From a candidate division FCPU426 bacterium (GTDB taxonomy: Bacteria; Oederibacteriota; Muellerivitia; Muellerivitales; Muellerivitaceae), in assembly GCA_030041545.1 (NCBI GenBank), contig JASHNQ010000073.1, positions 1 to 42,914 of the forward strand: a stretch of DNA of 42,914 nucleotides, in the 5' to 3' direction. Within the stretch, counting starts at the first letter, position 1, and each line of letters begins with the position of its first letter. Shown one piece after another: positions 15,413 through 42,914 of this stretch. The notes under the pieces were generated by a model, which saw only the letters and a list, made by a program, of their open reading frames with translations, ran no database searches and was not told where the DNA came from. A program made the translations under genes and the position numbers.

Positions 15413-17551
15413 ATGAGAGTGTACAATAAACCGATGAAACTCCCCAGAGTTGGATCGGCTTGGGTTGTTTTAGGATTGGCTTTGTCGGGCCAATTTTTCC
15501 TGACGCAACAACAGGTCCCCTGGACCCTTTGGGTGGGGATAGCACTGATGGGGGTGGCCCTTTGGAAACTCAGGGAATTGCCTTTTCCGGCAATGGGGCC
15601 TTCACTAGGTGTTCGAACGGAATTTATCTTATTTTCGATTCTTTCTATCGTGGCGGTCGGGGCCCATTTTTGGCGGCTGGGGGTTTTCCCGGCCGGGTTG
15701 TCCATGGATCTGGGCGAGATGGGTTGGTGCGCCCTTCGGATATTGCATGAGGGATGGAGGCCTCTGGAAGAAGCGTTCCAATATCCCACCCCTTTTTTAA
15801 CCGATTTTTACCAGATGGCCGCTTGGTTCGGGGCGGTTGGCTCCTCCCTTCTGACCCTGCGCTTGTTTTTCCTCCTCTTTTCGCTGGCAAGCCTCCCACT
15901 TCTATACCTGGTCTTCCGGAAATTCACGGGTCCCGCAACTGCCCTATTGACCCTGTTTTTCATGGCCGTCATGCGGTGGCAGTGGATCGAGGCCCGTGGC
16001 CCCCACCCCAGCTGTGAAACGGCTTTTTACCTTATGGTCCTGATGGCGCTGCTGCTGGTGGGGTTCCAGGGCCGGAAACCCCTTTGCCTTGCCGGCGCGT
16101 CTGTGGTTTGTGGTGTGGGAATTTATGCCTACCAAAATTTGAAGGCTCTTCAGCTACTGATGGCCGCGCTTTGGGCCTTTGAATATTTCCGGTTTCCTTC
16201 CGATAGAACCTTCCTGGGCCGGAATTGGAAATGGCCCCAGGCCCTTTTCCTGGTTCTCGCCCTGCCTTTCCTGGCTTACACATGGAGCCACCACAACCTG
16301 GGGGAAAGGGAAGCAGGGGCATTCATTGGCCGGAAAATAATCGGGGAAAAGAGCCTCTCTCCTCTTTTCGGCCAACTGGCGGGGTTCGCCTTGATGTTCA
16401 ACCGGCAGGGGGATTTGGACCCGGTTCACAACCTGCCCGGTTTGCGCATGCTGGACGATGGCACGGGTTTTTTGTTTTGGATAGGCTTGGCCCTAGCCTG
16501 GAGAAAACGGCGGGAAAGGGAAGGGGCCTATCCGCTCATTGGCTTTGTGGTGATGACCTTGCCGGGCTTGTTGACGGCCGACCCCTGCGCCACCCAAAGA
16601 TACACGGGCCTTTTACCCTTTATCGCTTATTTCGCCGCCTTGGGGGGGATGGGTTTGTGGAATGGGCTGGCCGGGACATTCCTCAAATGGAGAGAAATTC
16701 GATGGGCCTTAGGGCTTCTGTTCCTTTGCGCCGTGGCTTTGGAAAACGGGTATTTTTATTTCGGCCGGGAAGCGAAGGATTCCCGCTGCCAGGAAGCCTA
16801 TGGGCCGGAACAAACCTTTATCGGAAACGAAATTTCCAGGGGGGAAAGAGAATCACCCGGACGGTTCCGCTACTTCGTGGATCCCTTTTTTGAGCACAAC
16901 CCCACGATTGCCTTTTTAGGCTACCCGGCACGAGACCGTATTATTCCTTTTGAGGTATCGGATTGGGCCCAGGGAAAGATGCCCCGGGACAGGGATTCGG
17001 AGGTTTTCCTGAATGAAGTAAAATCCGGCACCTGGCTTTTCCTCCAGCGACTTTTGCCCGAAGGCCAAAGCGGAATTTTCCAAAGTCCCGACGGTGAAAC
17101 AGGCCTTTACTTGGATTGGATTCCGGTCTCGACCCTCAAGGGGAAGAAGCCTTGGGACCGGGGTTTGAAAGGGATCTATCAGGCATCCACCGACGTGACC
17201 GGGTCGCCCGCGGTTTCCCGCCTGGACCCCCTCATCAATTTTTCATCGCGGGGGGATTTTCCTTTTCAAGGCCCTTTGCCTTACAAGGCGCGATGGTCAG
17301 GGGGCCTTCAAGTCGAAATTTCGGGTGATTACGAATTCAACCTTCTGAGCTCGGATAAGGCCCAACTGTGGCTGGATGGGAAGGCGGTTTCATCGGAGCA
17401 ACCTGTTTACCTGGAAAGGGGGCTTCATGCCTTGCGTTTGGAATATGAAAAGGACAGCGGATATTATATGGCCCTGCATTTGGCTTGGAAAAAGCCGAAC
17501 GACAGCGGCTGGGAGATCGTGCCTGCGGAGGCTTATGGGTTGATCCGCTAG
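15413..17551 (+). CDS. GT-C-like membrane glycosyltransferase with C-terminal PA14 domain
   Basis: A 712-residue protein with many membrane helices from residue 15 to about 440, then a soluble region. The acidic MDLGEMG motif at residues 98-104, in the first extracytoplasmic loop, is the place where PMT/ArnT-type GT-C enzymes carry their catalytic acid. The last 90 residues look like a PA14 beta-sandwich: YKARWSGGLQVEISGDYEF, then KAQLWLDGKAV and LERGLHALRLEYEKDSG. Such enzymes move sugars from polyprenyl carriers to protein or glycan outside the membrane, and PA14 often binds carbohydrate. It resembles in plan the three tandem proteins from 36759 onward. ATG 15413 lacks a strong ribosome site, and ATG 15434 is an alternative. 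Confidence 0.72.
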   Translation: MRVYNKPMKLPRVGSAWVVLGLALSGQFFLTQQQVPWTLWVGIALMGVALWKLRELPFPAMGPSLGVRTEFILFSILSIVAVGAHFWRLGVFPAGLSMDLGEMGWCALRILHEGWRPLEEAFQYPTPFLTDFYQMAAWFGAVGSSLLTLRLFFLLFSLASLPLLYLVFRKFTGPATALLTLFFMAVMRWQWIEARGPHPSCETAFYLMVLMALLLVGFQGRKPLCLAGASVVCGVGIYAYQNLKALQLLMAALWAFEYFRFPSDRTFLGRNWKWPQALFLVLALPFLAYTWSHHNLGEREAGAFIGRKIIGEKSLSPLFGQLAGFALMFNRQGDLDPVHNLPGLRMLDDGTGFLFWIGLALAWRKRREREGAYPLIGFVVMTLPGLLTADPCATQRYTGLLPFIAYFAALGGMGLWNGLAGTFLKWREIRWALGLLFLCAVALENGYFYFGREAKDSRCQEAYGPEQTFIGNEISRGERESPGRFRYFVDPFFEHNPTIAFLGYPARDRIIPFEVSDWAQGKMPRDRDSEVFLNEVKSGTWLFLQRLLPEGQSGIFQSPDGETGLYLDWIPVSTLKGKKPWDRGLKGIYQASTDVTGSPAVSRLDPLINFSSRGDFPFQGPLPYKARWSGGLQVEISGDYEFNLLSSDKAQLWLDGKAVSSEQPVYLERGLHALRLEYEKDSGYYMALHLAWKKPNDSGWEIVPAEAYGLIR

Positions 17552-17595: not shown

Positions 17596-17693
17596 CCCTC
17601 ACCCTACCCTCTCCCGTCAAGGGAGAGGGAAAAATTCTTAAAAAGGCTTATATCTAATACCCTCGCCCCTTGCGGGAGAGGGTGGGGTGAGGG
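17596..17693. repeat. Inverted repeat of CCCTCACC/GGGTGAGG type
   Basis: The arms are CCCTCACCCTACCCTCTCCC at 17596-17615 and its imperfect inverse at 17674-17693. Each arm also forms a local hairpin, for example CCCTCTCCC with GGGAGAGGG at 17607-17629. This is a widespread intergenic repeat type. It lies between the PA14 glycosyltransferase and the NHL gene. Confidence 0.75.
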
Positions 17694-17740
17694 GTAACTT
17701 TCAAAACCAGAAAACAAACTTTAATACTTTCGATAAAAGG

Positions 17741-18673
17741 GTGACTTTGAAGCAAAACTTTTTTTTGTTGCTGGTTCTAATAATTTCGACTTCCGGCCTT
17801 TTAGGCCAAGAAGCGTCCAAGGCCGACCACCCTTTTATCGCCCAATGGGGCGGTTCAGGGCCCGGCAAAGGCCAGCTCTGGAACCCTTTTGGAATTGCGG
17901 TGGATCGAAGTGGAAAGGTTTACGTAGCTGACTACGCCAACGACCGCATTGAGGTGTTCGATTCCGATGGCCATTACGTGACCCAATGGGGAACCAAGGG
18001 AACGGGATCGGACCAATTCCACCACGCCTTGGGAGTGGTGGTGGATTCAAAAGGTTACGTTTATGTAGCGGACACCTTGAACAGCCGAATCAAGAAATAC
18101 ACTTCCCAAGGTGAATTGGTGACTATTTGGGGCGAGCAGGGTGAAAATCCCGGACAACTTTTCAACCCTGCCCTGTTGACGCTGGGCCTCAAGGGCATCC
18201 TGGTCGTGGCAGACTGCAGCAATAACAGGGTGGAAGAATTTACACCTGACGGCGTTTATGCGGGCCAAGTAGGTGAAGGGGGTGATGGCCCGGGCCAATT
18301 TTCCATGCCCACGGGTACTGCGACGGACAGCCAAGGGAATATTTACGTCACCGACACCAACCACCACCGGGTCGAGGAATTCGGGCCGATGGGCCGGTTT
18401 CTCACGCAATGGGGTAGGCACGGTTCGGGTGAGGGCGAATTCGACACCCCCGAAGGCGTGGCCGTGGACGGCCAGGGCACAATTTACGTGGTGGATTCGG
18501 GCAACAATCGTATCCAAGTGTTCACTTCCTCCGGCGCCTACCTGGACCAATGGGGGACGGAGGGCGAGGGCAATGGCCAGTTCAACGCCCCGGCGGGGAT
18601 CGCCTTGGACGGCGCCGGAAGGGTTTACGTGACGGATTGGGGCAATGACCGCGTGGAGAAATTCGGGCCCTGA
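17741..18673 (+). CDS. Secreted six-bladed NHL-repeat beta-propeller
   Basis: After a signal peptide (NFFLLLVLIISTSGLLGQ) the protein is built of six NHL repeats of about 47 residues. Each follows the pattern GQF..P.G.AVD..G.VYVADT.N.RIE.F...G....QWG; examples are VYVADYANDRIEVF and IYVVDSGNNRIQVF. This is a complete single propeller, exported and probably a binding scaffold for sugars or proteins. The open frame extends back into the preceding repeat element, so the start is taken at GTG 17741; TTG 17747 with the AAGGGTGA site is equally possible. A related but membrane-anchored propeller lies at 35714. No catalytic domain is present. Confidence 0.8.
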   Translation: MTLKQNFFLLLVLIISTSGLLGQEASKADHPFIAQWGGSGPGKGQLWNPFGIAVDRSGKVYVADYANDRIEVFDSDGHYVTQWGTKGTGSDQFHHALGVVVDSKGYVYVADTLNSRIKKYTSQGELVTIWGEQGENPGQLFNPALLTLGLKGILVVADCSNNRVEEFTPDGVYAGQVGEGGDGPGQFSMPTGTATDSQGNIYVTDTNHHRVEEFGPMGRFLTQWGRHGSGEGEFDTPEGVAVDGQGTIYVVDSGNNRIQVFTSSGAYLDQWGTEGEGNGQFNAPAGIALDGAGRVYVTDWGNDRVEKFGP

Positions 18674-19657: not shown

Positions 19658-20722
19658 ATGCACGAGCACGAGGTGGTCCAGCGCTGGAGGCACCCGGCCG
19701 TCCTGATCTTCCTCCTGGGCGGCTTCCTGGGCGCGGCACTCAACCTGGGAACCACCCTTCTCCTGGCCTTGCGTTTTTCCGTGACCCCCCTGGCGGCTTT
19801 CTTCGTGGGAACCTTCCTCAACCAGGCCTTCCACTATTTTTACTACCACGTGGTCTACGTGAACCACGAAATCCGCATGCGGACGTCCTTGCCGATCCAC
19901 CTCTTCCTCAGTTTCTGGGTTTCCTTGGGCGCCGCGGCCTTGCTTTGGGCCGGTTTGGCCATCCTGCGCTGGAGCCTGCCCTGGGACCTCCCGGCCTGCC
20001 TGGCGGTCCTGGCCGCCTCCAACGCCCTCCTCAACCGCATTTCCACCTTCAGCTCGGCCAAGATGGCCGAGGTGGAGTACAAGGAGATGAACGAAAGCTA
20101 TTACGACGACCATACGGATGAAACCAAGGTGAGCCGCTTCCGGGCCTGGTACCACCGCTCGCGCTACGAAAAGCTGACCCGTTTCGTCTCGGACCACTAC
20201 CGAAAGGGCATGCGCGTGGCGGACCTGGGCTGCGGCAACTGCTGGTGGAACACCCGCCGCCTGCCGGTGACCGGCGTGGACATCAACGCCAAGATGCTTC
20301 AGTGGGCCCGGAAGCACGGCCGGCTCAAGGATTACCGGGTCTGCGCCGACCTGGCGAAAACGGGGCTGAAATCCAGGAACTTCGACCTCGTCCTCATGTC
20401 CGAGGTCTTGGAGCACGTCTTCGACCACCGCAAGGTCCTGGCCGAGGTCCACCGCGTCCTTAAGGGCGATGGGACATTCCTCATCACCGTACCCTACGAT
20501 TTTTTCCTGGGCCCCTTCTTCATCCTGTTCAACCTCAACTGCCTGTACATGGGTTACGTGCGGGGGAGCGAATACCATAAGTACCGGTGCGGGCATATCC
20601 ACCATTTCACCCAGAACCGGCTGCGGAAAACCCTGGCCGAGAACGGCTTTGTCCTGGAAAATGTCTTTGTGGTGAATGGGCTGTTGTTATATGCTACCGC
20701 CCATAAAAACAAGGAAAATTAA
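19658..20722 (+). CDS. GtrA-like membrane domain fused to a SAM methyltransferase
   Basis: Residues 13-133 form four membrane helices with GtrA-family features, including FLLGGFLGAALNLGTTLLLA and the SNALLNRISTF motif at 121-131. GtrA-like proteins are thought to flip polyprenyl-phosphate sugars. After a linker, residues 160-354 are a class I methyltransferase: VADLGCGN (motif I, 187-194), VTGVDINAKML, LMSEVLEHVFD and LKGDGTFLITVPYD. The fusion suggests methylation of a lipid-linked sugar or a membrane-bound acceptor. GAGGAG lies seven bases before ATG 19658. The two domains are in one uninterrupted frame with no sign of a frameshift. A sequencing artefact joining two genes is unlikely, since the linker is ordinary coding sequence. 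Confidence 0.75.
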   Translation: MHEHEVVQRWRHPAVLIFLLGGFLGAALNLGTTLLLALRFSVTPLAAFFVGTFLNQAFHYFYYHVVYVNHEIRMRTSLPIHLFLSFWVSLGAAALLWAGLAILRWSLPWDLPACLAVLAASNALLNRISTFSSAKMAEVEYKEMNESYYDDHTDETKVSRFRAWYHRSRYEKLTRFVSDHYRKGMRVADLGCGNCWWNTRRLPVTGVDINAKMLQWARKHGRLKDYRVCADLAKTGLKSRNFDLVLMSEVLEHVFDHRKVLAEVHRVLKGDGTFLITVPYDFFLGPFFILFNLNCLYMGYVRGSEYHKYRCGHIHHFTQNRLRKTLAENGFVLENVFVVNGLLLYATAHKNKEN

Positions 20723-26419: not shown

Positions 26420-27343
26420 TTGGCAGCCAAGACCCAAAAGAAAAAAGCCAAACTTGTCCTTTCGGTCGTAACGCCCGCCTACAATGAGTCCCCAAACCTG
26501 CCGTTATTGTACACCCGGCTGAAAATGTCACTGGACAAGCTCCCACTACGCTGGGAATGGATCGTCGTGGATGATCATTCAACGGACAGGACCTACCCAC
26601 TAATGGAATACCTCGCCCGCAAGGACAGGAGGGTCAAGGTCATCCGGTTCGCCCGTAATTCGGGTTCCCACCTGGCCTTGGCCTGCGCCCTGCGGGAAGC
26701 AAGGGGAAAATGCGCCGTCGGCATGGCCGCGGACCTGCAGGATCCCCCGGAGGCCATCAGGGAACTTTATCATAAATGGAAGGGGGGGGCCCAGGTCGTC
26801 TGGGCGGTGCGTTCCCAAAGGGAAGGGGAGAGCTTCGGCAAGATTTTTTTCGCCAGGCTTTATTACTTCATCGTCCGCTATGGGGTGGGCATGAAGCAAA
26901 TTCCGCCTACGGGGGCCGATTTTTTCCTCCTGGACCGGCCCGTGCTCGACCGCTTGGCAAAAGCCCCCATCCGGAATGCCAGCCTCCTTTTGCTGATCAG
27001 TTCCTTCGGGTTTCGGGAAGAGTTCATTACCTACGTCAAAAGGGAAAGGTTGCACGGAAAGTCGGGTTGGAGCCTGAAGAAGAAACTCAAACTTTTTTTC
27101 GATTCCATCACCATGTTTTCCAAGGCTCCCCTCTACTGGCTGCCCGGCACAGGCATAGCCCTGATGGGCTTGGGCGCCTGGATGGCGCTGGTTTCCGGGA
27201 ATAGGGCCCTTTTGGGGCTGGGGGGATGGATTATTCTGGCGCTTGGGGCAGGTTTGGCCGCGACGGGAGCATTCCTGCTCAAGACGAGAAACTCTTCGAT
27301 GGTACCCCGGTTCGCCATTGAAAAAAGGTCAGGCCGTCCCTAG
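26420..27343 (+). CDS. GT2 glycosyltransferase, DPM/GtrB-like, with C-terminal membrane helices
   Basis: A 307-residue GT-A fold glycosyltransferase: SVVTPAYNESPNLPLL, VVDDHSTDRTYPL and the metal-binding region MAADLQDPPEA (Asp105, Asp108). Two hydrophobic helices at about 232-285 end it, the layout of GtrB-like polyprenyl-phosphate glycosyltransferases that charge undecaprenyl phosphate with a sugar on the inner face. The TTG start at 26420 follows GCGGGGAGC, which serves as ribosome site. It comes 21 bases after the second aminotransferase and probably closes that operon. Its product could feed the GT-C-like membrane enzymes of this window. Confidence 0.85.
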   Translation: MAAKTQKKKAKLVLSVVTPAYNESPNLPLLYTRLKMSLDKLPLRWEWIVVDDHSTDRTYPLMEYLARKDRRVKVIRFARNSGSHLALACALREARGKCAVGMAADLQDPPEAIRELYHKWKGGAQVVWAVRSQREGESFGKIFFARLYYFIVRYGVGMKQIPPTGADFFLLDRPVLDRLAKAPIRNASLLLLISSFGFREEFITYVKRERLHGKSGWSLKKKLKLFFDSITMFSKAPLYWLPGTGIALMGLGAWMALVSGNRALLGLGGWIILALGAGLAATGAFLLKTRNSSMVPRFAIEKRSGRP

Positions 27344-27516: not shown

Positions 27517-29721
27517 TCAACGGGCGGAATACCATTGATCCAGCCGCTTCCGTAAAATCCAGCCGATTAACAAGGCCAGCCAGGCGAAGAGGGAATAAAA
27601 AAAACTGTCCACGATGATGGGCGGATAGTAGGACATCTTCACCTGATGGGAGCCGGTGTTTAAGAGGGGAATGGCCCGGAAGGCGCCGTCGGCCAGGTAA
27701 ATGGGCGCCGCTTTCCCGTCCACCCAGGCCTTCCAGCCCGGGTAAAAGGAATCGGACAAGAAAAGGAAACAAGGACGGTCGTTGGCGGCTTCCAACTCCA
27801 CGTCGTTATAGTCGTACCGGGTGATCTTCGCTTCCCCCACCCAGCCTTTCGGCCCCTCCGGCTTCTGGGAAGGTTCCTGGGTGAGGATCACTTCCTGGCG
27901 CGGGTCCACCTTTTCATCCCGGATTTCGGTAATGGCCTGGTTGTAATCCGGCTCCACCTCATAACCGCCCACCATGAAAGCCCGGGGATAGGCCTCGGAG
28001 TCCTGCCAGACGGACTCTGTGATACCCGGAATCCTTTGCCAACGCCCGTTGGGTTGGGAGCCATCTGGTCGGTAATGGAAATTGAGCCGTATCAAATCCG
28101 AGAGAGGCGTATCCGGGTGGAGGTATTGCTCCTCCGTGTAAGCCCGGCCCGTCTTGATGAAAAAGGAGGTGCAATCGGTAAAGGCGGTGCTGATGTTTTG
28201 GAGTATCTGGTATTCGGTATAAGTGCTTCTCGGCTGGACCCTCGGGTAGGTGGGGTCGTCCTTGACTTTTTTCAGGAGGTCCGGGGGTAACAAGTCGGTG
28301 AAGAAGGCATCGCAGCCATTAAAACATTCCGTGAAGTGCGTATCGAAACGGTAAAGGTCAACAGCCGTGCCCAAGAGCAGGATGGCGGGGATTACTGCCG
28401 CCAGGAGGATCCGGTAGGGACGCGCCAGTCTTTTCATCCCGCGCCATCGCCGAATCCAAGCATCCAAAGCCATACCAGCCAAACACGCCAATGAAAAAGT
28501 TGTTAAAACCAAAATGCGGCTTGGAACCCGGTTGTTTGAAAAACAGGGGAAGAATTTATAAAAAAACAAGTAAACATAATGGGTGACGGTGGTCGTATCG
28601 GCCATAGCCAAGGACATGGTTAAAACAGCCACCAGGACCAGCCACACGACAATGGACTTCTTGAACAGAAATCCCAAACCCGAAATCGCCAAGAAAATGG
28701 GAATTAGCCCCAGATAAATGATGACCTCGGCATATCCCCCTATTCCGTGGTAAGGGCCCGCCCCCGGCCCCCCTGCAAAAAAGGGATCGATAAAAAATCG
28801 CAGATTAACGGGGTTGAAGGAATCCCGCATGATACTTTCCCATCCAAAACCCCAGCGGTTGCTGTACCGCGCGAACTCAAAGGTTGGGGCCAACTGGCAT
28901 AAGCCCAGCGACAAACCTACCGCCAGGAAAGCCACTCCAGCCCCCAGGGCTTCCTTGAAGGCGAGTTCCTTCCGGAACCAGGCCCAGGCTAGGTACAGGC
29001 CGATTATTAACAAGGTGTAAAGATTGACCTGGGGCATTCCTTCCAGGAGGGACAGCCCGAAAACACCGGCTGCCAACAAAAGGATGGAGAAGCGGCGAAG
29101 GTCCAGGAACCGTTTCAGGAAGAAGAAAATGAGGGGAAGCCACGCGGCGGCCCCAAAAATGTTGGGCGCTCCCGACCAAAAATGGCCCATGAAATAACCG
29201 GAAAAGGCGAATGCCAATCCGCCCAAGAAGGCCCCAGCCCAACCCGTTCCAAGGCTGCGAATAAAAAGGTAGGTTCCAAAGGCTGAAATCAGGAAGTGGA
29301 AAAAATAACTCCAAGTGAAAGCATAACTCGTTGAAAAAATGAAAAAAAGGAAATTGAAAGGAGCATAGGCCCCCGGGTTGCAGTTGGCCAGGAAAGGCTG
29401 ACCCAGGTTGCTATAGGGATTCCAAAGGGCTGGATAGCCCTTTTTCAGGCTTTCGATCCAAACGAATTTGTAGGGCCACATATATTCCATGTCCGCAGTT
29501 GCACTGGGAATCCAACTAGGATGGCGCAGGAAGCCCCAAAGAAAAAGGGCTGTAAATACGACAAAAAGGGCCAACGCATAGAGCCCCTCGAATCCCGGAG
29601 CCCGCTCTTTTTTTTCAGACCCCGATAAGGCCTTTAGGCGTGGCAAGGTAGATGGGAAAAGGCCCTTTGCCAGGCGTCTACTTGGGGCTGACCTTGACGG
29701 ATTCACTTTACCCTTGGGCAT
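27517..29721 (-). CDS. YfhO family membrane protein (GT-C-like)
   Basis: A protein of about 734 residues with some twelve membrane helices. YfhO features include an acidic D-x-E in ATADMEYMWPYKFVWIE, then ALWNPYSNLGQPFLANCNP, and near the end DSFYPGWKAWVDGKAAPIYL, a module common in YfhO proteins, before a last helix. YfhO helps glycosylate lipoteichoic acid in Bacillus; the wider family is thought to move sugars from lipid carriers outside the membrane. ATG 29721 is preferred because AAAGGA lies seven bases upstream; an in-frame ATG at 29739 is the alternative. The gene ends the leftward operon and converges on the GT2 at 26420. Confidence 0.8.
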   Translation of the reverse strand: MPKGKVNPSRSAPSRRLAKGLFPSTLPRLKALSGSEKKERAPGFEGLYALALFVVFTALFLWGFLRHPSWIPSATADMEYMWPYKFVWIESLKKGYPALWNPYSNLGQPFLANCNPGAYAPFNFLFFIFSTSYAFTWSYFFHFLISAFGTYLFIRSLGTGWAGAFLGGLAFAFSGYFMGHFWSGAPNIFGAAAWLPLIFFFLKRFLDLRRFSILLLAAGVFGLSLLEGMPQVNLYTLLIIGLYLAWAWFRKELAFKEALGAGVAFLAVGLSLGLCQLAPTFEFARYSNRWGFGWESIMRDSFNPVNLRFFIDPFFAGGPGAGPYHGIGGYAEVIIYLGLIPIFLAISGLGFLFKKSIVVWLVLVAVLTMSLAMADTTTVTHYVYLFFYKFFPCFSNNRVPSRILVLTTFSLACLAGMALDAWIRRWRGMKRLARPYRILLAAVIPAILLLGTAVDLYRFDTHFTECFNGCDAFFTDLLPPDLLKKVKDDPTYPRVQPRSTYTEYQILQNISTAFTDCTSFFIKTGRAYTEEQYLHPDTPLSDLIRLNFHYRPDGSQPNGRWQRIPGITESVWQDSEAYPRAFMVGGYEVEPDYNQAITEIRDEKVDPRQEVILTQEPSQKPEGPKGWVGEAKITRYDYNDVELEAANDRPCFLFLSDSFYPGWKAWVDGKAAPIYLADGAFRAIPLLNTGSHQVKMSYYPPIIVDSFFYSLFAWLALLIGWILRKRLDQWYSAR

Positions 29722-29778
29722 AAGGTTTCCTTTCAACATTGAGGACTTGCCGCACCAAGCCCTCGACCTTGGGAGTAT

Positions 29779-30486
29779 TTAAAATATGGCGTAAAGATAC
29801 CAGCGAAGGTAAAAAGGCAGCCACTTCAGAAGCTTAAACCGGGACTGGCCCGCGGAACGGTCCCTCCAAGTCGTGGGCACTTCGCAAACAGGATAGCCTC
29901 TCTTAACGGCCTTGACGGTAATTTCCATGGCCAGTTCAAAACCACCACGGCTTTCAATGCCAACTGCATCCAGTAGAGCCTTGTCATACAGCCGGAAATT
30001 ATTCGTGACGTCATGGATGGGAAAGCGGAAGAACCAATTCAAGGTGATCCCGGCCAAGCGGGAAAGGGTGCGCTTCAAAAGGGGCCCCCCTTCCTGGCGT
30101 CCTCCCTTCATGTAACGGCTGCCGCAGACCACTCTGAAACCCTCAGCATATTTTTCCAGCATGGGATCCACGGAGGACAGGTCGTCCGAAAGATCCCCCA
30201 TGACCACCAGGCAAGGGCCCGACTTCACCTCCGCGAAGCCGCTCCTTAGGGCGTTCAAGGCCCCCCGGCCGAAACGGTTTTTCACCAAGCGAAGGTTTTT
30301 GTCTTTTTTTTGGATTTCACGGGCGGGCGGCAAGGTGTTGTCTTCATCAAAGTCATAGACAATGAAAATGCGCCGCCGCGCTTTGATTTTGGAAAAAATT
30401 TCGGAATAAACCTTCCGGATATTATCCCCTTCGTTATAAACGGGAATGATGATATTCAGTAATCTGGATTTTCGGGGGAGCATCAT
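29779..30486 (-). CDS. GT2 polyprenyl-phosphate glycosyltransferase (DPM1-like)
   Basis: A 235-residue cytoplasmic glycosyltransferase of the dolichol-phosphate mannose synthase type, without the extra membrane helices of the GT2 at 26420. Motifs are NIIIPVYNEGDNIRKVY, VYDFDEDNTLP, VVMGDLSDD (metal-binding acidic cluster), and FPIHDVTNNFRLYDKALLD followed by GGFELAMEITVKA, typical of the DPM1 group. It probably attaches a hexose to a polyprenyl phosphate for later use by the YfhO or GT-C-like proteins. It lies 9 bases after the SDR gene in the same leftward operon. The donor sugar is not predictable. Confidence 0.87.
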   Translation of the reverse strand: MMLPRKSRLLNIIIPVYNEGDNIRKVYSEIFSKIKARRRIFIVYDFDEDNTLPPAREIQKKDKNLRLVKNRFGRGALNALRSGFAEVKSGPCLVVMGDLSDDLSSVDPMLEKYAEGFRVVCGSRYMKGGRQEGGPLLKRTLSRLAGITLNWFFRFPIHDVTNNFRLYDKALLDAVGIESRGGFELAMEITVKAVKRGYPVCEVPTTWRDRSAGQSRFKLLKWLPFYLRWYLYAIF

Positions 30487-35713: not shown

Positions 35714-36727
35714 ATGCCGCCGCGTAAAAAAGCAAGCCGTGCCGCCTCCCCCAAATTAAGCCGGAGGCCGGCGAGGTCCGCCCCGGCCGGGGTCGACCCC
35801 ACCGGATGGGGTAAAACCATCATTTGGATCCTCATTGGCATTGTGGCAGTGGTTTTTGCCGTGGAATCCCTCAACCTGTTCCACGGCGAAGTCGTCAAGG
35901 ATTTCCAAGTCCGGTATCTTTCCACGATCGGAAGCCAGAGCAAGTGCGGAGTGATCAATGCCTGGGGAGTGGGACCGGTGGGCAAGGACAAGATCATGGT
36001 CGTGGACCAGGAACACGACCGGATCCTGGTTTTCGACCGCCAGGGAAACTGCCTCAAAAGCTGGGGGAAATTAGGGTTGGGCTCCAAGGAATACCATGAG
36101 CCATCCGGATTAACCTCGGACGACCAGGGCAACGGCTATGTCATCGATACCTGGGGCAATGCCATCAAGGGCTATGACGAAAACGGCAAGGAAATCCTGA
36201 ACGTCTCCCTCACCAATGGTAATTTTTACGGCCCCCGGGGAATCGGTTTTGACGGGAAAAATTTCGCCATCGCCGACACGGGAAGCCAAAATTTGAAGAT
36301 CGTCGGCCGAGATGGCCGGGTACAGACTGTCTGGGGAGGGTTAGGCAAGGAACCCGGACAATTCCAGGGGCTCTTGGACGTTGTTTGCGACGAAAAAGGC
36401 GATTATTTCGTCGCGGACTCAGATAACGACCGCGTCCAATGGCTTGACCAGGACGGCAAGGTGGTCAAGATTTTTAAATGCAAGGCTCCTGTGCCTGCCG
36501 TGGCCCTGGACAAGGAGGGGCGCCTTTACATCTCCACCGCCACGGGCACGGGATCCAGTTGCGTCAAAGCCTACAGCCTGAAGGACGGCTACTTGGGAGA
36601 CCTCAAAGACGATAAAGGGCGTCTGGTTTCCGGCGGCCGTGGCCTGGCCGTGACCCCGGATGATGTTCTCCTGATCGCGGGAGGAGACAGTGTGGGCCTG
36701 TACCAACTGCCGTCGGTCGCTCCTTAG
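35714..36727 (+). CDS. Membrane-anchored NHL-type beta-propeller
   Basis: A 337-residue protein with a basic, Pro/Ala/Arg-rich N-terminus (about 32 residues), one membrane helix (TIIWILIGIVAVVFAV) and an extracytoplasmic beta-propeller of NHL-type blades such as IMVVDQEHDRILVF, GYVIDTWGNAIKGY and YFVADSDNDRVQWL. A GGAGG ribosome site precedes ATG 35714. It heads the operon of tandem GT-C-like genes, whose products share the same type of basic, disordered N-terminus. It may hold an acceptor or scaffold the transferases at the membrane. Unlike the secreted propeller at 17741, the blades are more divergent. Confidence 0.75.
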   Translation: MPPRKKASRAASPKLSRRPARSAPAGVDPTGWGKTIIWILIGIVAVVFAVESLNLFHGEVVKDFQVRYLSTIGSQSKCGVINAWGVGPVGKDKIMVVDQEHDRILVFDRQGNCLKSWGKLGLGSKEYHEPSGLTSDDQGNGYVIDTWGNAIKGYDENGKEILNVSLTNGNFYGPRGIGFDGKNFAIADTGSQNLKIVGRDGRVQTVWGGLGKEPGQFQGLLDVVCDEKGDYFVADSDNDRVQWLDQDGKVVKIFKCKAPVPAVALDKEGRLYISTATGTGSSCVKAYSLKDGYLGDLKDDKGRLVSGGRGLAVTPDDVLLIAGGDSVGLYQLPSVAP

Positions 36728-36758
36728 GGGAAAGAGATATTGAAGGCGGTTCCCACAC

Positions 36759-39251
36759 TTGGCCCAACGTAAACAAAACCCCCCCCGGCCCGTCCGCCGG
36801 CCTTCCCGGCGCGGGAAGGCCTCCCGCTCCTTCAAGATTTCCCACTCCCCGTCCAAGGCCTTCCCGCCGGAAGCCCATTTACTTTTATTGTTGGGGTTTC
36901 TCCTGGTTGTAGCGGTTTTCCTGCAATATGAACCGTTCCAATGGCTGGGTAGCCCCCTCCACCTGCCGTTGGACCACCTGCGTTTTCTCCTGGAACTGGC
37001 CGCCCTGCTCTTGTTCCTGGGTTTTTTCCTGGGACTCCAGGGCTTGCCCGACAAGACACCCCTCCCCGATCTCCCGCGTTGGGCCGCCTATCCCTTGCTG
37101 CTGTCCGTCCTGGCCTTGACAGCCTTCCTCCGGTTCTACCGAGCCGACCAAGCCATGGGCCGTTATTGGGACGATCCGGCTATTTGCATCATTGATCCCT
37201 GCAACATCGTCCAGCTCCACATTTTCCGCATCGATTTCGCCATCGGCCACCGGGAGCCCCTTTACCCTTATTTGGCCGCGGGGGTTTGGTGGTTTTTCCC
37301 CCAAATGAAGGCCTTGGTGGTGGAAAGGCTTTCCTCCACGCTTTTCGACGTGGGGGCCGTGTGGGTGTTCTACCGCTTGGGGAGGGAAGTGGCGGGCCAA
37401 AGGCTGGCGGGCCTTTTTTTCGCCGCCCTGGGCGCGGTCAGCAAGCCCATGATCATGCAAAACCTCACGGGAATGCCGGGCCTTATCCTCCCTTTCATCA
37501 TCGGAATGGTGATGTGGTTCCAATTCCGGCTTTTCCGCAAACCGGATTTGCCCCATTTTCTCCAATGGGGCTTCCTGTTGGGGTTCGGCTTTTATACTTA
37601 CATCGCCTACCGCCCTTGGGCGCTTTTCCTGGCTTTTTTATCCCTGGTTTGGATCGTTTTCAGGCCGAAAGAACAAGCCATCCAAGCCTCCGGTCAGCGG
37701 GCCTCCGGACGCCTTTCCCCTGCGGTTCATTGGGCTTTCCGGGCCCTTTTGGCCCTGGGAATGGCGGGAGTTTTTCTTTTCCTTTTGGACCGGATGTTCG
37801 TGGTGTTTTACGACAACCCCGTTTCCAAGCTTTGGAGAATGAACGTTTGGGTATGGCTGCTCCTCCAAGCCGTCTTTTTCGCCGCCTTGGGGTATTTCTA
37901 CCTCCGCACCCAGGGTAAGGAAAGATTGGTGGTGGCTTGGGGCCTGGCCGTCCTCCTGACGGGTTTTTTGGTTTATCCCCTGGCCATGAACGCGGAAATT
38001 GGGATTAAAATCCAGGATAACCGGATCCATTTCCATAACCTCAAGGAAATGACGGACCAGTTCGTCAGCTGGATAAGGTTTTTGTTCTATACCGGGGACG
38101 ACCGGTCGGACATGAACGTGGAAGGCGATCCCTTTTTCGACTGTCCCGCGGCGGCGCTGGCTTTCGCTGGGTTGGTCTTCACCGCGGCCCGCCCCTCTTG
38201 GCCCAAGCTTTTCCTCCTGCTTTGCGCTTTCACGGGATCGGTGGGCCGGATCCTCACCGTGGACCCAACCAGCGCCAAGGTCCTGGGATCCCTACCCGCC
38301 CTGCTTTTGCTGCCCTCTTGGGGGCTGTCGGCCTGGGTTTCGGCCTCCTTCACCGGCACTTGGAAAAGGAAATGGGTGGGAATCCTCCTGTCGGCCGGGC
38401 TGGCGGCTTTCTGGGCCTGGGAAGGTTACGGAAGTTTTGAACGGGTTTACGTCAAATGGTGGAACATCCTGCGGCCCGACATCCTTGTTTCCCGCGAAAT
38501 ATCCGACCTGCTGCCCACCAAGCGGGTCTACATGGGGGTTTACAACGGAATGGGCTTTGCCTCCCCGGCCGTGGAGAGCGTCATCCACGACGGGGAACCC
38601 CTTTATTTGCTGCAAAAAACCAACGTGATCGATGTCTTGCCGGAGGAAACCCGCAAGGATGTGGTCGTCCTGATTGACGGGCTGGACAGGGAATGGGCCC
38701 CGATCCTGAAAAAGGATTTTCCGAAAGCCCAGTGGCTGCCGCGATGGGAGTATTACCAAAACCCGAATGACATCCCATGCCTTGAGGACGTGGTGATTCC
38801 CGCGAAGGACATCCCGGAAAAACCGGGGAAAATCTTCATGTTCCGGGTGGCGCCGAACAAGAACTGGCTCCGCCGGGTTTACGAAACCTATTATGGCCTT
38901 GGCCGCGGCATGATTTCCTACGAGGACGCCAGCTCCACCTTGAATCCCTTTCCAACGGGATGGGGGGGGCGCTCGGCTTCGGCGGAAGGGGATTGGGAGG
39001 CCCCAGCCGACGGCGATTACACCTTTTCCGCCAACACCCCCAATCCGGTCCAGGTATGGGTGGATGGAAAGCTGGCCCTGTCCTCCATCACGGCCGATTG
39101 GGTCAAGCCCCGCCTGGTTTCCCATACCCTTTTCCTCACGAAAGGGACCCACCACGTGCGTTATGTGACCTTCATGAGGGTGGATGCCTGGTTTGACCGG
39201 GTGACCCTACAAAACAAAAAAACCGGCTACCAGTCCGTTTTAGGCGAATAA
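36759..39251 (+). CDS. GT-C-like membrane glycosyltransferase, tandem paralogue A
   Basis: An 830-residue protein with a basic N-terminal tail, about eleven membrane helices (roughly 41-600) and a soluble C-terminal part. The first large loop has RYWDDP (Asp138 and Asp139) and GHREPLYPYLAAG (Arg165-Glu-Pro), a GT39/PMT-type arrangement in which an acidic residue is catalytic. After YYGLGRGMISYED comes a beta-sandwich (EGDWEAPADGDYTF, VQVWVDGKLAL, LTKGTHHVRYV) like PA14. The same pieces recur in the next gene, showing tandem duplication. The TTG at 36759 is a weak start; AAGGCGG lies about nine bases upstream. It probably transfers a lipid-linked sugar to a surface polymer or protein; the donor is unknown. 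Confidence 0.75.
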   Translation: MAQRKQNPPRPVRRPSRRGKASRSFKISHSPSKAFPPEAHLLLLLGFLLVVAVFLQYEPFQWLGSPLHLPLDHLRFLLELAALLLFLGFFLGLQGLPDKTPLPDLPRWAAYPLLLSVLALTAFLRFYRADQAMGRYWDDPAICIIDPCNIVQLHIFRIDFAIGHREPLYPYLAAGVWWFFPQMKALVVERLSSTLFDVGAVWVFYRLGREVAGQRLAGLFFAALGAVSKPMIMQNLTGMPGLILPFIIGMVMWFQFRLFRKPDLPHFLQWGFLLGFGFYTYIAYRPWALFLAFLSLVWIVFRPKEQAIQASGQRASGRLSPAVHWAFRALLALGMAGVFLFLLDRMFVVFYDNPVSKLWRMNVWVWLLLQAVFFAALGYFYLRTQGKERLVVAWGLAVLLTGFLVYPLAMNAEIGIKIQDNRIHFHNLKEMTDQFVSWIRFLFYTGDDRSDMNVEGDPFFDCPAAALAFAGLVFTAARPSWPKLFLLLCAFTGSVGRILTVDPTSAKVLGSLPALLLLPSWGLSAWVSASFTGTWKRKWVGILLSAGLAAFWAWEGYGSFERVYVKWWNILRPDILVSREISDLLPTKRVYMGVYNGMGFASPAVESVIHDGEPLYLLQKTNVIDVLPEETRKDVVVLIDGLDREWAPILKKDFPKAQWLPRWEYYQNPNDIPCLEDVVIPAKDIPEKPGKIFMFRVAPNKNWLRRVYETYYGLGRGMISYEDASSTLNPFPTGWGGRSASAEGDWEAPADGDYTFSANTPNPVQVWVDGKLALSSITADWVKPRLVSHTLFLTKGTHHVRYVTFMRVDAWFDRVTLQNKKTGYQSVLGE

Positions 39252-39266
39252 TATTTAAGGAATCCG

Positions 39267-41855
39267 ATGGTCCCAAGGAAAAAAAAGCTTAAAACCAAAC
39301 TTTCCCCACGAAAGGCCGATTCCTCCCGGCTCCGCCGGAAATCCGGGAAAGCCGCCCTTTCCCCGGCCAAGCTTTCGGCCAAGGATAAACCCGTTCCCCT
39401 CGGCGCGGACCGGTTCGGCTACCTCGTGGCCGCCTTTTTCACGGTCATGGCGGGCCTCCTGGCCCTGCCCAACTACAACCTTCTTTTCTATCCCGGCAAC
39501 GCGTTCATCAAAAATCAAATCCAGGTATTCCCCCCCACTAATTGGTTCGCCCACCTTCCGGCAACACCCCTGATCCTCATCGGCTTTATCGCCCTTGCGG
39601 CCCTCTTCCGTATGATCCCCCCGGTTCCGGAAGGGGGATGGGACATCCCGGTTGGGCCGGCCCGGGCCGGATTCTGGTTCTTCATGGCCCTGGGGGCCTA
39701 CCTGCGCCTGGAAAACCCACACCAGCCGGTGGGCTTTTTTTGGGACGACCACTACACCATCGACTCGGACATCCGGAACATGCTGGACTTCCACAAGTTT
39801 TATTTCCTTTTCCCGGTGGGATGGCGGGAGCCCCTTTTTCCCTACCTCTCGGCTTTCCTCTGGCTTTTTGATTCCCACGCCACGGGCCAAGTGGTCGTGC
39901 TGCTGGCGGATGTCCTCATCGACATGGCGGCCCTCTGGCTTTTCTACCTGATCGGCAAGGAAATCGGGGGCCGGCGGATGGGCCTGCTGCTTTTGGCCCT
40001 GGGGGCCATCTGCAAGACCATGGTCATGGTGTGCAAATTCGAATACGGGAACAATACCTGCGTCCTGGCCAGCGCGGCGGCCATGCTTTTTTCCCTGAGG
40101 CTCCTCAAGAAACCCGGACTCAAACATTTCATGGAATGGGGCGCGGCCCTGGGCTTCGGGGCCTTCGCCTACGTCCCCTTCCGCCCTTGGACGCCCGTCT
40201 TCCTGGGAGCGGCCTGGCTTTGGGTGCTCAGCGATAAAAAAGAACGGCGGTTCGACGCCTACCGCCTGGCGCTGGGGCCGGGCCTGCTCCTGGCCTGGGC
40301 CTTCTTGTTCATCTACAAGAATTCCTTCCTGCCGGAGGAGAGCGGATGGGTGCGCTTCCTATCCGGGCCCGGGGCCGTGGCGGCGGGGCTGGCCCTGGCC
40401 TCCAGCTACGGGAGGGTGTTCCTGGAGGAAAAAAAGAAAGGCTTCAGCAAACTCTTCGGATGGGCCACGGGAGCCTTCGTGACGGCCCTGATCATGGCGC
40501 CTTTTTATCTCCACCCGCATTATTCCGAGCACGTGGCCGACATCTCCGCCTTCAGCGCCAAGTTCACGGCGCCGGGCCAAGGCTGGCGAAAGGTCTGGGA
40601 AAACACTTCCTTCACGTGGAAACTGCTGTTCGGCCAAGTGGACCACGTTTCCCGCCTTCCGGCCATCGGGGACTCCCTTTACGAGTTCGGGGTGGCCGCC
40701 TGCGCCCTCCTGGGGCTGGCTTATTTCATCGCCCGCCCGGGGTGGCTTCCGGCCTTTGTCGTATCGCTGTTTTTCATCAGCACGGTGGGGGGCATCCTCT
40801 CCAACGGGCCCCATTCGTTCCGCTACGTGATCTGCGACCTGCCCCTGCTCTTGACCGGGGCCTGGGGTTTGAACCGGCTTTGGCTGGCGGCCTTGCAGGC
40901 CTTCCCGGTCCGTTGGATCAACGGGGCCGTGGCCCTGGCCTTCCTGGCTTTCCTGGGCTGGGAGACGGGGGAGAACCATAAATTGACCTGGGAATGGATG
41001 GGCCAGGAAGCCCAAAACACCATCGTTTGGGACCAGGCCCGGCGGGAAATGCCGGACCACCGGGTTTACCTCGTGCAGCATGATCCGGGTTTCTACGCCG
41101 CCTGCGCCATGGAGGTGCTGGCCGACCAATCGGACCTGTTCCAAGCCGCCGACAGCAACAGCATCGATTTGACCCCCGATGAGAAGGGAAAAGACCTCGC
41201 GGTTTTGGTCTCTGGGAAGGATACGGACGGACAGAAAAAAATCGAATCCGAGTTTCCCGGGATCGTATGGAACAAAAAATCCTATTACCTGCAGTCGGAC
41301 GATGATATCCCCTACTTGTGGTGGACGGAGATTCCCTTCGACCGGATACCCACGGACGAGAAGGCCTATTTCCACGTCCGGCGGGTTTCCCCCTGGACGT
41401 GGCGGCGCCGCTGCTACGGTTATTACGGGCTCGGCCGCGGGCTGGTCCTTTACGAAGACCGGGTGACCCGGTGGAACGACAACCTCCCGCCCCGGTCCCT
41501 GATCGACTGGAACAACTCCATGCGGGTAGAGGGCGATTGGAACGTCACCGCCGCTGGTTCCTATAAACTGGCGCTGCGTACCGGCAACGTGCTTTGGTTT
41601 TTCCTGGACGGCAAAAAAGTGATGGAAGTGACCCCGGAGGGGGGCGGAAGGCGAACCTGCCAGGTGTCGCTGGAGAGGGGAACCCACCACGTGGAACTGG
41701 TCACGGCCTTCGCCGCCGAACACCAGGTCCCCACCGTCTATGTGACCGCGCCCGGAAGCGGAACCGAACAGCCGCTGGACGAATTGGCGGCCAGCACCGC
41801 CCCGCCGGTGGATCTCCCCGCCGCCGTTTCCACTCCCGCGCCGGAGGCGAAGTAA
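39267..41855 (+). CDS. GT-C-like membrane glycosyltransferase, tandem paralogue B
   Basis: An 862-residue paralogue of the preceding gene: basic N-terminal tail (KKKLKTKLSPRKADSSRLRR), membrane helices, FFWDDHYTID (Asp160, Asp161), GWREPLFPYLSAF (Arg187-Glu-Pro), and in the C-terminal part YYGLGRGLVLYED followed by a PA14-like sandwich (VEGDWNVTAAGSYKLAL, LWFFLDGKKVM, LERGTHHVELVTAF). A Pro/Ala/Thr-rich tail ends the protein. ATG 39267 follows AAGGAA. It starts 15 bases after paralogue A and its stop is two bases before paralogue C. Divergence of the loop around the REP motif suggests that each copy has its own acceptor or donor. Confidence 0.78.
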   Translation: MVPRKKKLKTKLSPRKADSSRLRRKSGKAALSPAKLSAKDKPVPLGADRFGYLVAAFFTVMAGLLALPNYNLLFYPGNAFIKNQIQVFPPTNWFAHLPATPLILIGFIALAALFRMIPPVPEGGWDIPVGPARAGFWFFMALGAYLRLENPHQPVGFFWDDHYTIDSDIRNMLDFHKFYFLFPVGWREPLFPYLSAFLWLFDSHATGQVVVLLADVLIDMAALWLFYLIGKEIGGRRMGLLLLALGAICKTMVMVCKFEYGNNTCVLASAAAMLFSLRLLKKPGLKHFMEWGAALGFGAFAYVPFRPWTPVFLGAAWLWVLSDKKERRFDAYRLALGPGLLLAWAFLFIYKNSFLPEESGWVRFLSGPGAVAAGLALASSYGRVFLEEKKKGFSKLFGWATGAFVTALIMAPFYLHPHYSEHVADISAFSAKFTAPGQGWRKVWENTSFTWKLLFGQVDHVSRLPAIGDSLYEFGVAACALLGLAYFIARPGWLPAFVVSLFFISTVGGILSNGPHSFRYVICDLPLLLTGAWGLNRLWLAALQAFPVRWINGAVALAFLAFLGWETGENHKLTWEWMGQEAQNTIVWDQARREMPDHRVYLVQHDPGFYAACAMEVLADQSDLFQAADSNSIDLTPDEKGKDLAVLVSGKDTDGQKKIESEFPGIVWNKKSYYLQSDDDIPYLWWTEIPFDRIPTDEKAYFHVRRVSPWTWRRRCYGYYGLGRGLVLYEDRVTRWNDNLPPRSLIDWNNSMRVEGDWNVTAAGSYKLALRTGNVLWFFLDGKKVMEVTPEGGGRRTCQVSLERGTHHVELVTAFAAEHQVPTVYVTAPGSGTEQPLDELAASTAPPVDLPAAVSTPAPEAK

Positions 41856-41857
41856 CC

Positions 41858-42914
41858 GTGGCTTCTTCCAAACGGAAAAGAACGGCGGCGCGGAAAAAAA
41901 CGCCATCGCCCCTTAAATCGAAAGCCCCGGCCGCCCCATTTCCGAAAGGGATGGAAACCCCAGAGCCTCACCTTTTCACGGGCCTGATTCTTTCTTGGGC
42001 GCTGGCCGTGCTGGCACTGTTGTCCCTCCCCAACGCCAAGCTCCTGGTTCCGGGTTGGAACTTTTTTTCCCACCAGCCCTTTTACCCCCTTCTATTGGCC
42101 GGTTTCGCCGGGATGGTTTATTTTTTCAGGAAAATACCGGAAGGGGGGGGCGTCCCGGATATCCGCCCCGTCCTTTCCCGGCCGGTTTTTTGGGGGCTCC
42201 TGGTCCTGGGCGTGGCCATCCGGCTCCGGCAGATTCACCGCATCTGCGGCTGCATCGACAACGACCACTGGATGTGCGCGGACGAAGGGCTGAAAATACT
42301 GGTGGAAGGGGACCGGCCCATCCTGCTTCCTTACGGCGAAAGGGAGCCTTTTTTCGCCTATCTTTCCGCGTTCATTTGGTCCTTCATGCCCCAGGCCACG
42401 GCCAATGTCGCCCTCACCCTCTCGTCGGTCACGGTGGATGTTTTCATCCTTTGGTCCTTCTACCTTTTAGGCAAGGAGTTCGGGGGGCGGCGCGGGGGAT
42501 TGATCCTCATGGCCATGGGGGCCATCAGCAAGACGTTGGTGGAGATCTCCAAGATCAACTTCGGCTTCCATTCGGACGTCCTGGCTTGCGCCCTCACGAT
42601 TCTTTTCCTGTTCCGGCTCCTGAAAAAACCCAAGCTTTCCCGCTTCATCGCGTGGGGCCTGTCCCTGGCCCTGGGGTCTTATGTTTACGTGGCTTTCCGT
42701 TTGTGGACTCCGGCCATCATCGGCGGGTTGTGGCTGTGGATGATGGGGCGGCCGGAATTGCGGCCCAAGAGCCGAACCGCCCAGGCCCTGGCTTGGGCCG
42801 TCATGGTGGGCTGGGGCTTCGCTTTTTTTTACGTCAACCGGGTCCTTCCCCACGACTGGGGTTGGGTCCGGTTTTTCGCCTCGGGGTGGGGACTTTGGCT
42901 GTTTTTGGCGGTTT
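41858..42914 (+). CDS. GT-C-like membrane glycosyltransferase, tandem paralogue C (cut by window end)
   Basis: The gene starts with GTG at 41858, behind GGAGG at 41843-41847, and runs off the end of the window after 352 codons. The visible part has the same basic tail (MASSKRKRTAARKKTPSPLK), membrane helices, an acidic loop DNDHWMCADEG (134-144) and GEREPFFAYLSAF (Arg162-Glu-Pro), aligning with paralogues A and B. The start is two bases after the stop of B, so the three are one transcription unit. The WDD pair of A and B is replaced by a DNDHW context. Whether a PA14-like C-terminus follows is not visible. Confidence 0.75.
   Translation, partial: MASSKRKRTAARKKTPSPLKSKAPAAPFPKGMETPEPHLFTGLILSWALAVLALLSLPNAKLLVPGWNFFSHQPFYPLLLAGFAGMVYFFRKIPEGGGVPDIRPVLSRPVFWGLLVLGVAIRLRQIHRICGCIDNDHWMCADEGLKILVEGDRPILLPYGEREPFFAYLSAFIWSFMPQATANVALTLSSVTVDVFILWSFYLLGKEFGGRRGGLILMAMGAISKTLVEISKINFGFHSDVLACALTILFLFRLLKKPKLSRFIAWGLSLALGSYVYVAFRLWTPAIIGGLWLWMMGRPELRPKSRTAQALAWAVMVGWGFAFFYVNRVLPHDWGWVRFFASGWGLWLFLAV

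Follow-up and report, generated by a model that had tools for sequence, protein, structure and literature searches.

What is a membrane-anchored NHL β-propeller doing at the head of a row of glycosyltransferase-like genes, and what do the enzymes behind it make? The question is raised by the end of a contig from an uncultured soil bacterium of the candidate phylum FCPU426. The whole contig, 42,914 nt in length, is the window analyzed here, and by ORF calls and Pfam it is rich in surface-polysaccharide genes, forming a surface-sugar cassette. The propeller gene is followed by three genes, A, B, and C, with spacers of 31, 15, and 2 bp, respectively, C running past the end of the window (Table 1). 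ORF calls, homology, and Pfam matches bore out the three adjacent paralogues behind a membrane-anchored NHL propeller that had been claimed in a preliminary description of the locus. When the contig was extended past C, as proposed there, C resumed on another contig of the same genome (C64) after a gap of about 40 missing codons, and was followed by a fourth GT-C gene with a PA14 tail, D. We think that A to D and the propeller probably form a multi-enzyme external glycosylation system, in which the PA14-type tails bind the acceptor and the propeller acts as a scaffold or acceptor guide.

Table 1. Genes of the array, its surroundings, and related loci. Positions refer to the window unless a locus on another contig of the source genome is named (L018, contig C64; L028, contig C85).
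Feature	Position	Strand	Evidence or remark
E, related GT-C with PA14 tail (E/D type)	15413..17551	+	Pfam PA14, 36.7 bits; match to PA14 of RsgI3, E value 3.7e-8
Secreted NHL propeller adjoining E	17687..18673	+	not a conserved partner
GtrA-like membrane segment fused to methyltransferase, weak flippase candidate	19658..20722	+	PF04138 E value 0.004, below cut-off, one orthologue only
Candidate donor-making GT2, similar to the polyprenyl-phosphate sugar synthases PgfS/ArnC	26420..27343	+	NCBIfam E values 1e-36 and 6e-28, below equivalog cut-offs
Membrane protein of the YfhO family, which is of GT-C type	27517..29739	-	PF09586, 28.6 bits (cut-off 28.5)
Candidate donor-making GT2, similar to AglJ, dolichyl-phosphate hexose transferase, and PpgS	29779..30486	-	NCBIfam E values 2e-14 to 4e-9, below cut-offs
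Membrane-anchored NHL β-propeller	35714..36727	+	Pfam NHL, 37.2 bits; DUF5128; TM position; family tree; motif
A, GT-C glycosyltransferase with PA14-type tail	36759..39251	+	Pfam PA14; AF2 model; Foldseek; orthologues in the family
B, GT-C glycosyltransferase with PA14-like tail	39267..41855	+	Pfam PMT_2; AF2 model; Foldseek; dN/dS 0.14-0.18
C, N-terminal part	41858..42914	+	homology to B; C orthologue in G001 with PA14
C, remainder on contig C64	L018:2-1348		continuation of C of the window
D, GT-C with PA14 tail, after C on contig C64	L018:1519-4461
Chlor_Arch_YYY (one copy within a double protein of 2054 aa) with two anchored NHL propellers, GT2, Agl23-family gene	L028:1514-16028 (G000:C85)

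Sequence comparison identified A, B, and C as true paralogues (E value 2e-65 for B against C and 1e-42 for B against A). B matches the Pfam profile PMT_2 with 27.1 bits (cut-off 26.1), as does its orthologue in the related genome G001 (30.9 bits); the match of C is weak, and A and C by themselves fall under the cut-off, yet both are clear homologues of B. AlphaFold (AF2) models were obtained with moderate to low confidence for B and A (pLDDT 67.5 and 57.7, respectively; pTM 0.55), and the membrane parts of these predicted structures had OST, PglB, AglB, and ArnT as their top Foldseek matches. As these matches have a TM-score of about 0.3, they establish the GT-C superfamily and nothing narrower. 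The GT-C-like core described earlier is thus supported by both the profile match of B and the structural matches.

The sequence motifs of the preliminary description fared less uniformly. Its acidic motif (WDD or DND) in the first extracytoplasmic loop (EL1) stands in part: the second aspartate is invariant in 25 of 25 readable members of the A/B/C family, as well as in D and E, but nothing else among the motifs is invariant. The REP motif and the YYGLGRG linker, both reported as common to the paralogues, vary across the family, and C itself reads LPLCRG. The basic N-termini were confirmed, with a K+R fraction of 0.29-0.40 over the first 35 residues of A, B, and C against a median of 0.11 in a background set from this genome (36 polytopic and 55 soluble ORFs). 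A and B are under purifying selection (dN/dS 0.14-0.22).

The tails had been described as PA14-like β-sandwiches, which is corroborated by Pfam and by the structural models. The PA14 profile (cut-off 24 bits) was matched by A (24.1 bits), D (29.9 bits), and E, a related enzyme encoded elsewhere in the window, and by the orthologues of C in G001 (29.1 bits) and of B in G006 (25.8 bits); B of the window had no PA14 match by Pfam. In Foldseek searches, the predicted tails of A and B resembled KmBglI, Epa, Flo, MpPA14, and protective antigen. The DcisD calcium site of PA14 lectins, for which we used the definition in PMC8092209, is absent from the tails of A to E, where no DD precedes the DG strand in the alignment. 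The tails therefore have a PA14-like fold, rather than being PA14 calcium lectins, and lectin-type sugar binding was rejected as their function, since the calcium motif is missing.

In a sample of 59 genomes of relatives, the A/B/C family is present in each of the 8 genomes of one bacterial family, the source genome included; beyond that family, there were only two weak matches (E value about 1e-6), both elsewhere in the phylum. A tree separates the A, B, and C lineages, of which A and B span several genera and C is common to two, while the copy number differs among genera. The E/D type of GT-C with a PA14 tail is spread through FCPU426, with six proteins from six genomes of other families carrying both domains by Pfam. 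Three matches to this type outside the phylum align over the GT-C core only, and in the two that were scanned (from G120 and G104) PA14 is absent by Pfam. At an E value of 1e-4, PMT_2 genes number 15-38 per genome in the family, compared with 7 for the sister family and a range of 0-27 for the sampled genomes of other phyla.

The anchored propeller consists of a basic N-terminal tail, a single TM helix at about residues 29-47, and a propeller of the 6-bladed type with an FYGPR motif; the cut-off for its NHL repeats (PF01436) is 20 bits. A propeller lies next to an A gene in all 8 genomes of the family, and this order is conserved over divergent genera. In seven of them (G000 to G003 and G005 to G007), the anchored propeller is encoded 31-88 bp upstream of A or an A-like gene; in the fragmentary G004, two propellers are found beside an A-like gene, but in convergent orientation. 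The closest paralogues of the anchored propeller precede GT9 and GT2 genes, and the same is seen in the sister family.

A repeated pairing of propellers with GT-C enzymes had been proposed earlier, with E and the secreted propeller next to it as a second instance. The pairing at the array is upheld by synteny throughout the family and by fusions elsewhere, but that of E is not. E itself is a GT-C whose tail is clearly PA14; its pair with the secreted propeller, however, recurs in the close relative G002 alone and is absent in G003 to G007, as far as these loci are readable, and the propeller nearest to E in G001 is convergent and different. The secreted propeller also lacks the FxPR motif of the partner propellers. 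The two were therefore rejected as a second conserved system.

A survey of genomes for NHL propellers together with the GT-C/PA14 architecture, suggested earlier as a check, revealed conserved adjacency in the family and propeller-GT-C fusions elsewhere. The latter are found in a phylum other than FCPU426, where G120, G137, and G139 encode NHL-GT-C fusion proteins (45-49% identical along their entire length), and G120 and G139 also Agl23-NHL and PMT-YYY-NHL fusions, confirmed by Pfam and NCBIfam models. These fusions point to a standing, undescribed partnership between propellers and GT-C enzymes, and this partnership, which shows up as synteny in the family of the array and as fused genes in the other phylum, is the stronger finding. 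The fusions of NHL to GT-C, Agl23, and PMT-YYY were also observed to sit in one cluster (L106:1486-4422, minus strand; L119; L121).

Within FCPU426, separate propeller genes also accompany the Chlor_Arch_YYY/Agl23 cluster, which has the order YYY-NHL-NHL-GT2-Agl23 on contig C85 of the source genome and in G006. This cluster is conserved in the sister family; in G008 (contig C22) it contains extra genes in between, and its individual genes are 49-52% identical to their counterparts in G000. Three further FCPU426 families have the order YYY-Agl23-NHL-NHL. In 13 genomes from other phyla, the surroundings of YYY were free of propellers to a distance of about 5 kb; a propeller is thus not obligatory, and the link depends on the lineage. 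Nor does any pairing rule cover all NHL propellers: among 27 NHL genes chosen by NHL score alone, with their context ignored, none had a GT-C, YYY, Agl23, or GT2 gene within two positions, and such a rule was discarded. In the aligned sequences, there is a tendency for partner propellers to have a PR motif in common. Of the motif-bearing propellers, 28 of 34 lie in such a context, against 9 of 36 without the motif (p 1.5e-6 for a looser aligned PR column and a profile-defined context, a post hoc comparison with non-independent rows); the strict FFGPR motif against a crude TM-count context was not significant (p 0.07). It is possible, though we hold this more tentatively than the reading of the array itself, that anchored NHL propellers with [FW][FYW]xPR are a general, undescribed subunit of lipid-linked-sugar machineries, partnering Agl23, YYY, and PMT, encoded separately in FCPU426 and fused in another phylum, and organizing several GT-Cs on one acceptor.

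Among known systems, the array resembles the multi-component (three-component) transmembrane glycosylation systems GtrABC, CsbB/GtcA/YfhO, and GT136 pentofuranose (PMC8035078, PMC11127046) in its GT-C enzymes with an acidic EL1 site, and it may also resemble them in the nearby GT2s, whose similarity to polyprenyl-phosphate sugar synthases falls well below equivalog cut-offs. As in GT136, EmbC, and AftD, the GT-C carries an extra C-terminal β-rich domain of a carbohydrate-binding type. Unlike in the GtrABC, CsbB/GtcA/YfhO, and GT136 systems, there are at least four GT-Cs in a row, with PA14-type tails instead of another CBM, an anchored NHL propeller as the conserved first gene, and no canonical GtrA flippase. 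Chlor_Arch_YYY/Agl23 clusters (TIGR03662, TIGR03663) occur in archaea and some bacteria; the one on C85 has two anchored propellers with the partner motif and a GT2, and differs in its propellers from the YYY loci of the 13 genomes of other phyla, while A, B, and C are members of neither YYY nor Agl23. The tails share the β-sandwich fold of the PA14 domains of RsgI3, MpPA14, the Epa/Flo adhesins, and the GH3 enzyme KmBglI, and E matches RsgI3 by sequence, but they lack DcisD and are attached to a GT-C enzyme. By Foldseek, the enzymes have the GT-C fold in common with PglB/AglB/STT3 and ArnT, but not a WWDYG-like motif, and sequence identity is 10-14%.

The fold matches to OST, PglB, and AglB raise the alternative that A to D are PMT- or OST-like protein O- or N-glycosyltransferases that modify secreted proteins, the propeller then being an acceptor or export chaperone. 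Agl23, found in the related YYY-NHL cluster, fits this as well, as it serves the use of lipid-linked sugars in archaea for both N- and O-glycans (PMC11182771). We nevertheless consider this rather unlikely, as a WWDYG-like motif is absent in 26 of 26 members of the A/B/C family, the TM-scores support the GT-C superfamily only, and surface-polysaccharide genes fill the window.

It is less likely still that the propeller is independent, or an enzyme acting on the glycan, and merely co-transcribed, the pairing reflecting the abundance of NHL and GT-C genes. The genome does contain at least 140 NHL repeats and 47 PMT_2 matches, and the pair of E and the secreted propeller is not conserved; however, none of the 27 context-blind NHL genes lies near a GT-C-type gene, gene order is kept over divergent genera, and propellers are fused to their partners in another phylum. 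We give very little credence to the idea that A, B, and C are lineage-specific duplicates of little functional meaning, with one active enzyme and drifting copies. Their tandem layout and varying copy number would suit it, but the lineages are shared between genera, dN/dS is low for A and B, and the EL1 aspartate is invariant.

For the external glycosylation system that we favor, candidate donor makers lie in the window itself (Table 1), and an Agl23-family gene is present elsewhere in the genome. Canonical GtrA (PF04138) had no match in the genome; 13 of 14 control genomes have one. The GtrA-like segment fused to a methyltransferase is kept in G001, G002, G004, G005, and G006, but was not supported as a proven flippase, with a PF04138 match below the cut-off and a non-significant hhalign comparison to YfdG. 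On either side of the array is a copy of an MFS-fused spermidine-synthase-like protein (window 33237-35468 and L018:6749-8944), in both cases close to a YfhO-family gene.

Enzymes of the GT-C superfamily take their sugars from polyprenyl-linked donors on the outer side of the membrane, and by membership of this family A to D would draw on such donors too; an export-side location of the glycosylation is consistent with this biology. The reading builds on the observed domain make-up, homology, synteny, purifying selection, and propeller-Agl23/GT-C fusions in another phylum, from which we infer the lipid-linked donor, the side of the membrane, the sugar, the acceptor, and the role of the propeller. 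In this mechanism, the GT2s encoded nearby would place sugars on polyprenyl phosphate, and a flippase, for which the candidate is only weak, would move the lipid-linked sugars to the outer face. There, A, B, C, and D would use the invariant EL1 aspartate in transferring them to an acceptor at the surface, either a glycan or a glycoprotein. Each paralogue may add a different sugar, as the preliminary description suggested. The C-terminal PA14-type domains may help to hold the acceptor, and the membrane-anchored propeller, on the same face, could be a scaffold for the GT-C enzymes or present the acceptor.

A multi-component transmembrane glycosylation system combines a GT-C with a flippase and a polyprenyl-phosphate sugar synthase; in some GT-C enzymes, an acceptor-binding domain or CBM is present as well (PMC8035078, PMC11127046). 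The role of the CBM has been called unclear (PMC11127046), and separate acceptor-recognition proteins for GT-C enzymes have been the subject of speculation (PMC8035078). Our literature searches found nothing for GT-C with a PA14 domain, only one unrelated match for PMT_2/PA14/NHL, and nothing on topic for NHL with glycosyltransferase or oligosaccharyltransferase; for FCPU426, no biochemical data or functional study of its glycan machinery was found. The recurrent propeller partner, seen in fusions and synteny, is a concrete candidate for how GT-Cs find or hold their acceptors outside the membrane, and the glycan machinery of a candidate phylum is described here.

Other propellers and polytopic proteins were observed beyond the array. 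On C64, L018:12807-18028 encodes a pair of NHL-propeller proteins whose long C-terminal domains look to be of SGNH type by eye; the next gene looks FkbH-like. A second, larger array is located on contig C91 (L026 and L027; G000:C91:20000-52000), with about ten polytopic proteins of ~500-810 aa over some 30 kb. These lie outside the A/B/C family, and several of them have PMT_2 matches.
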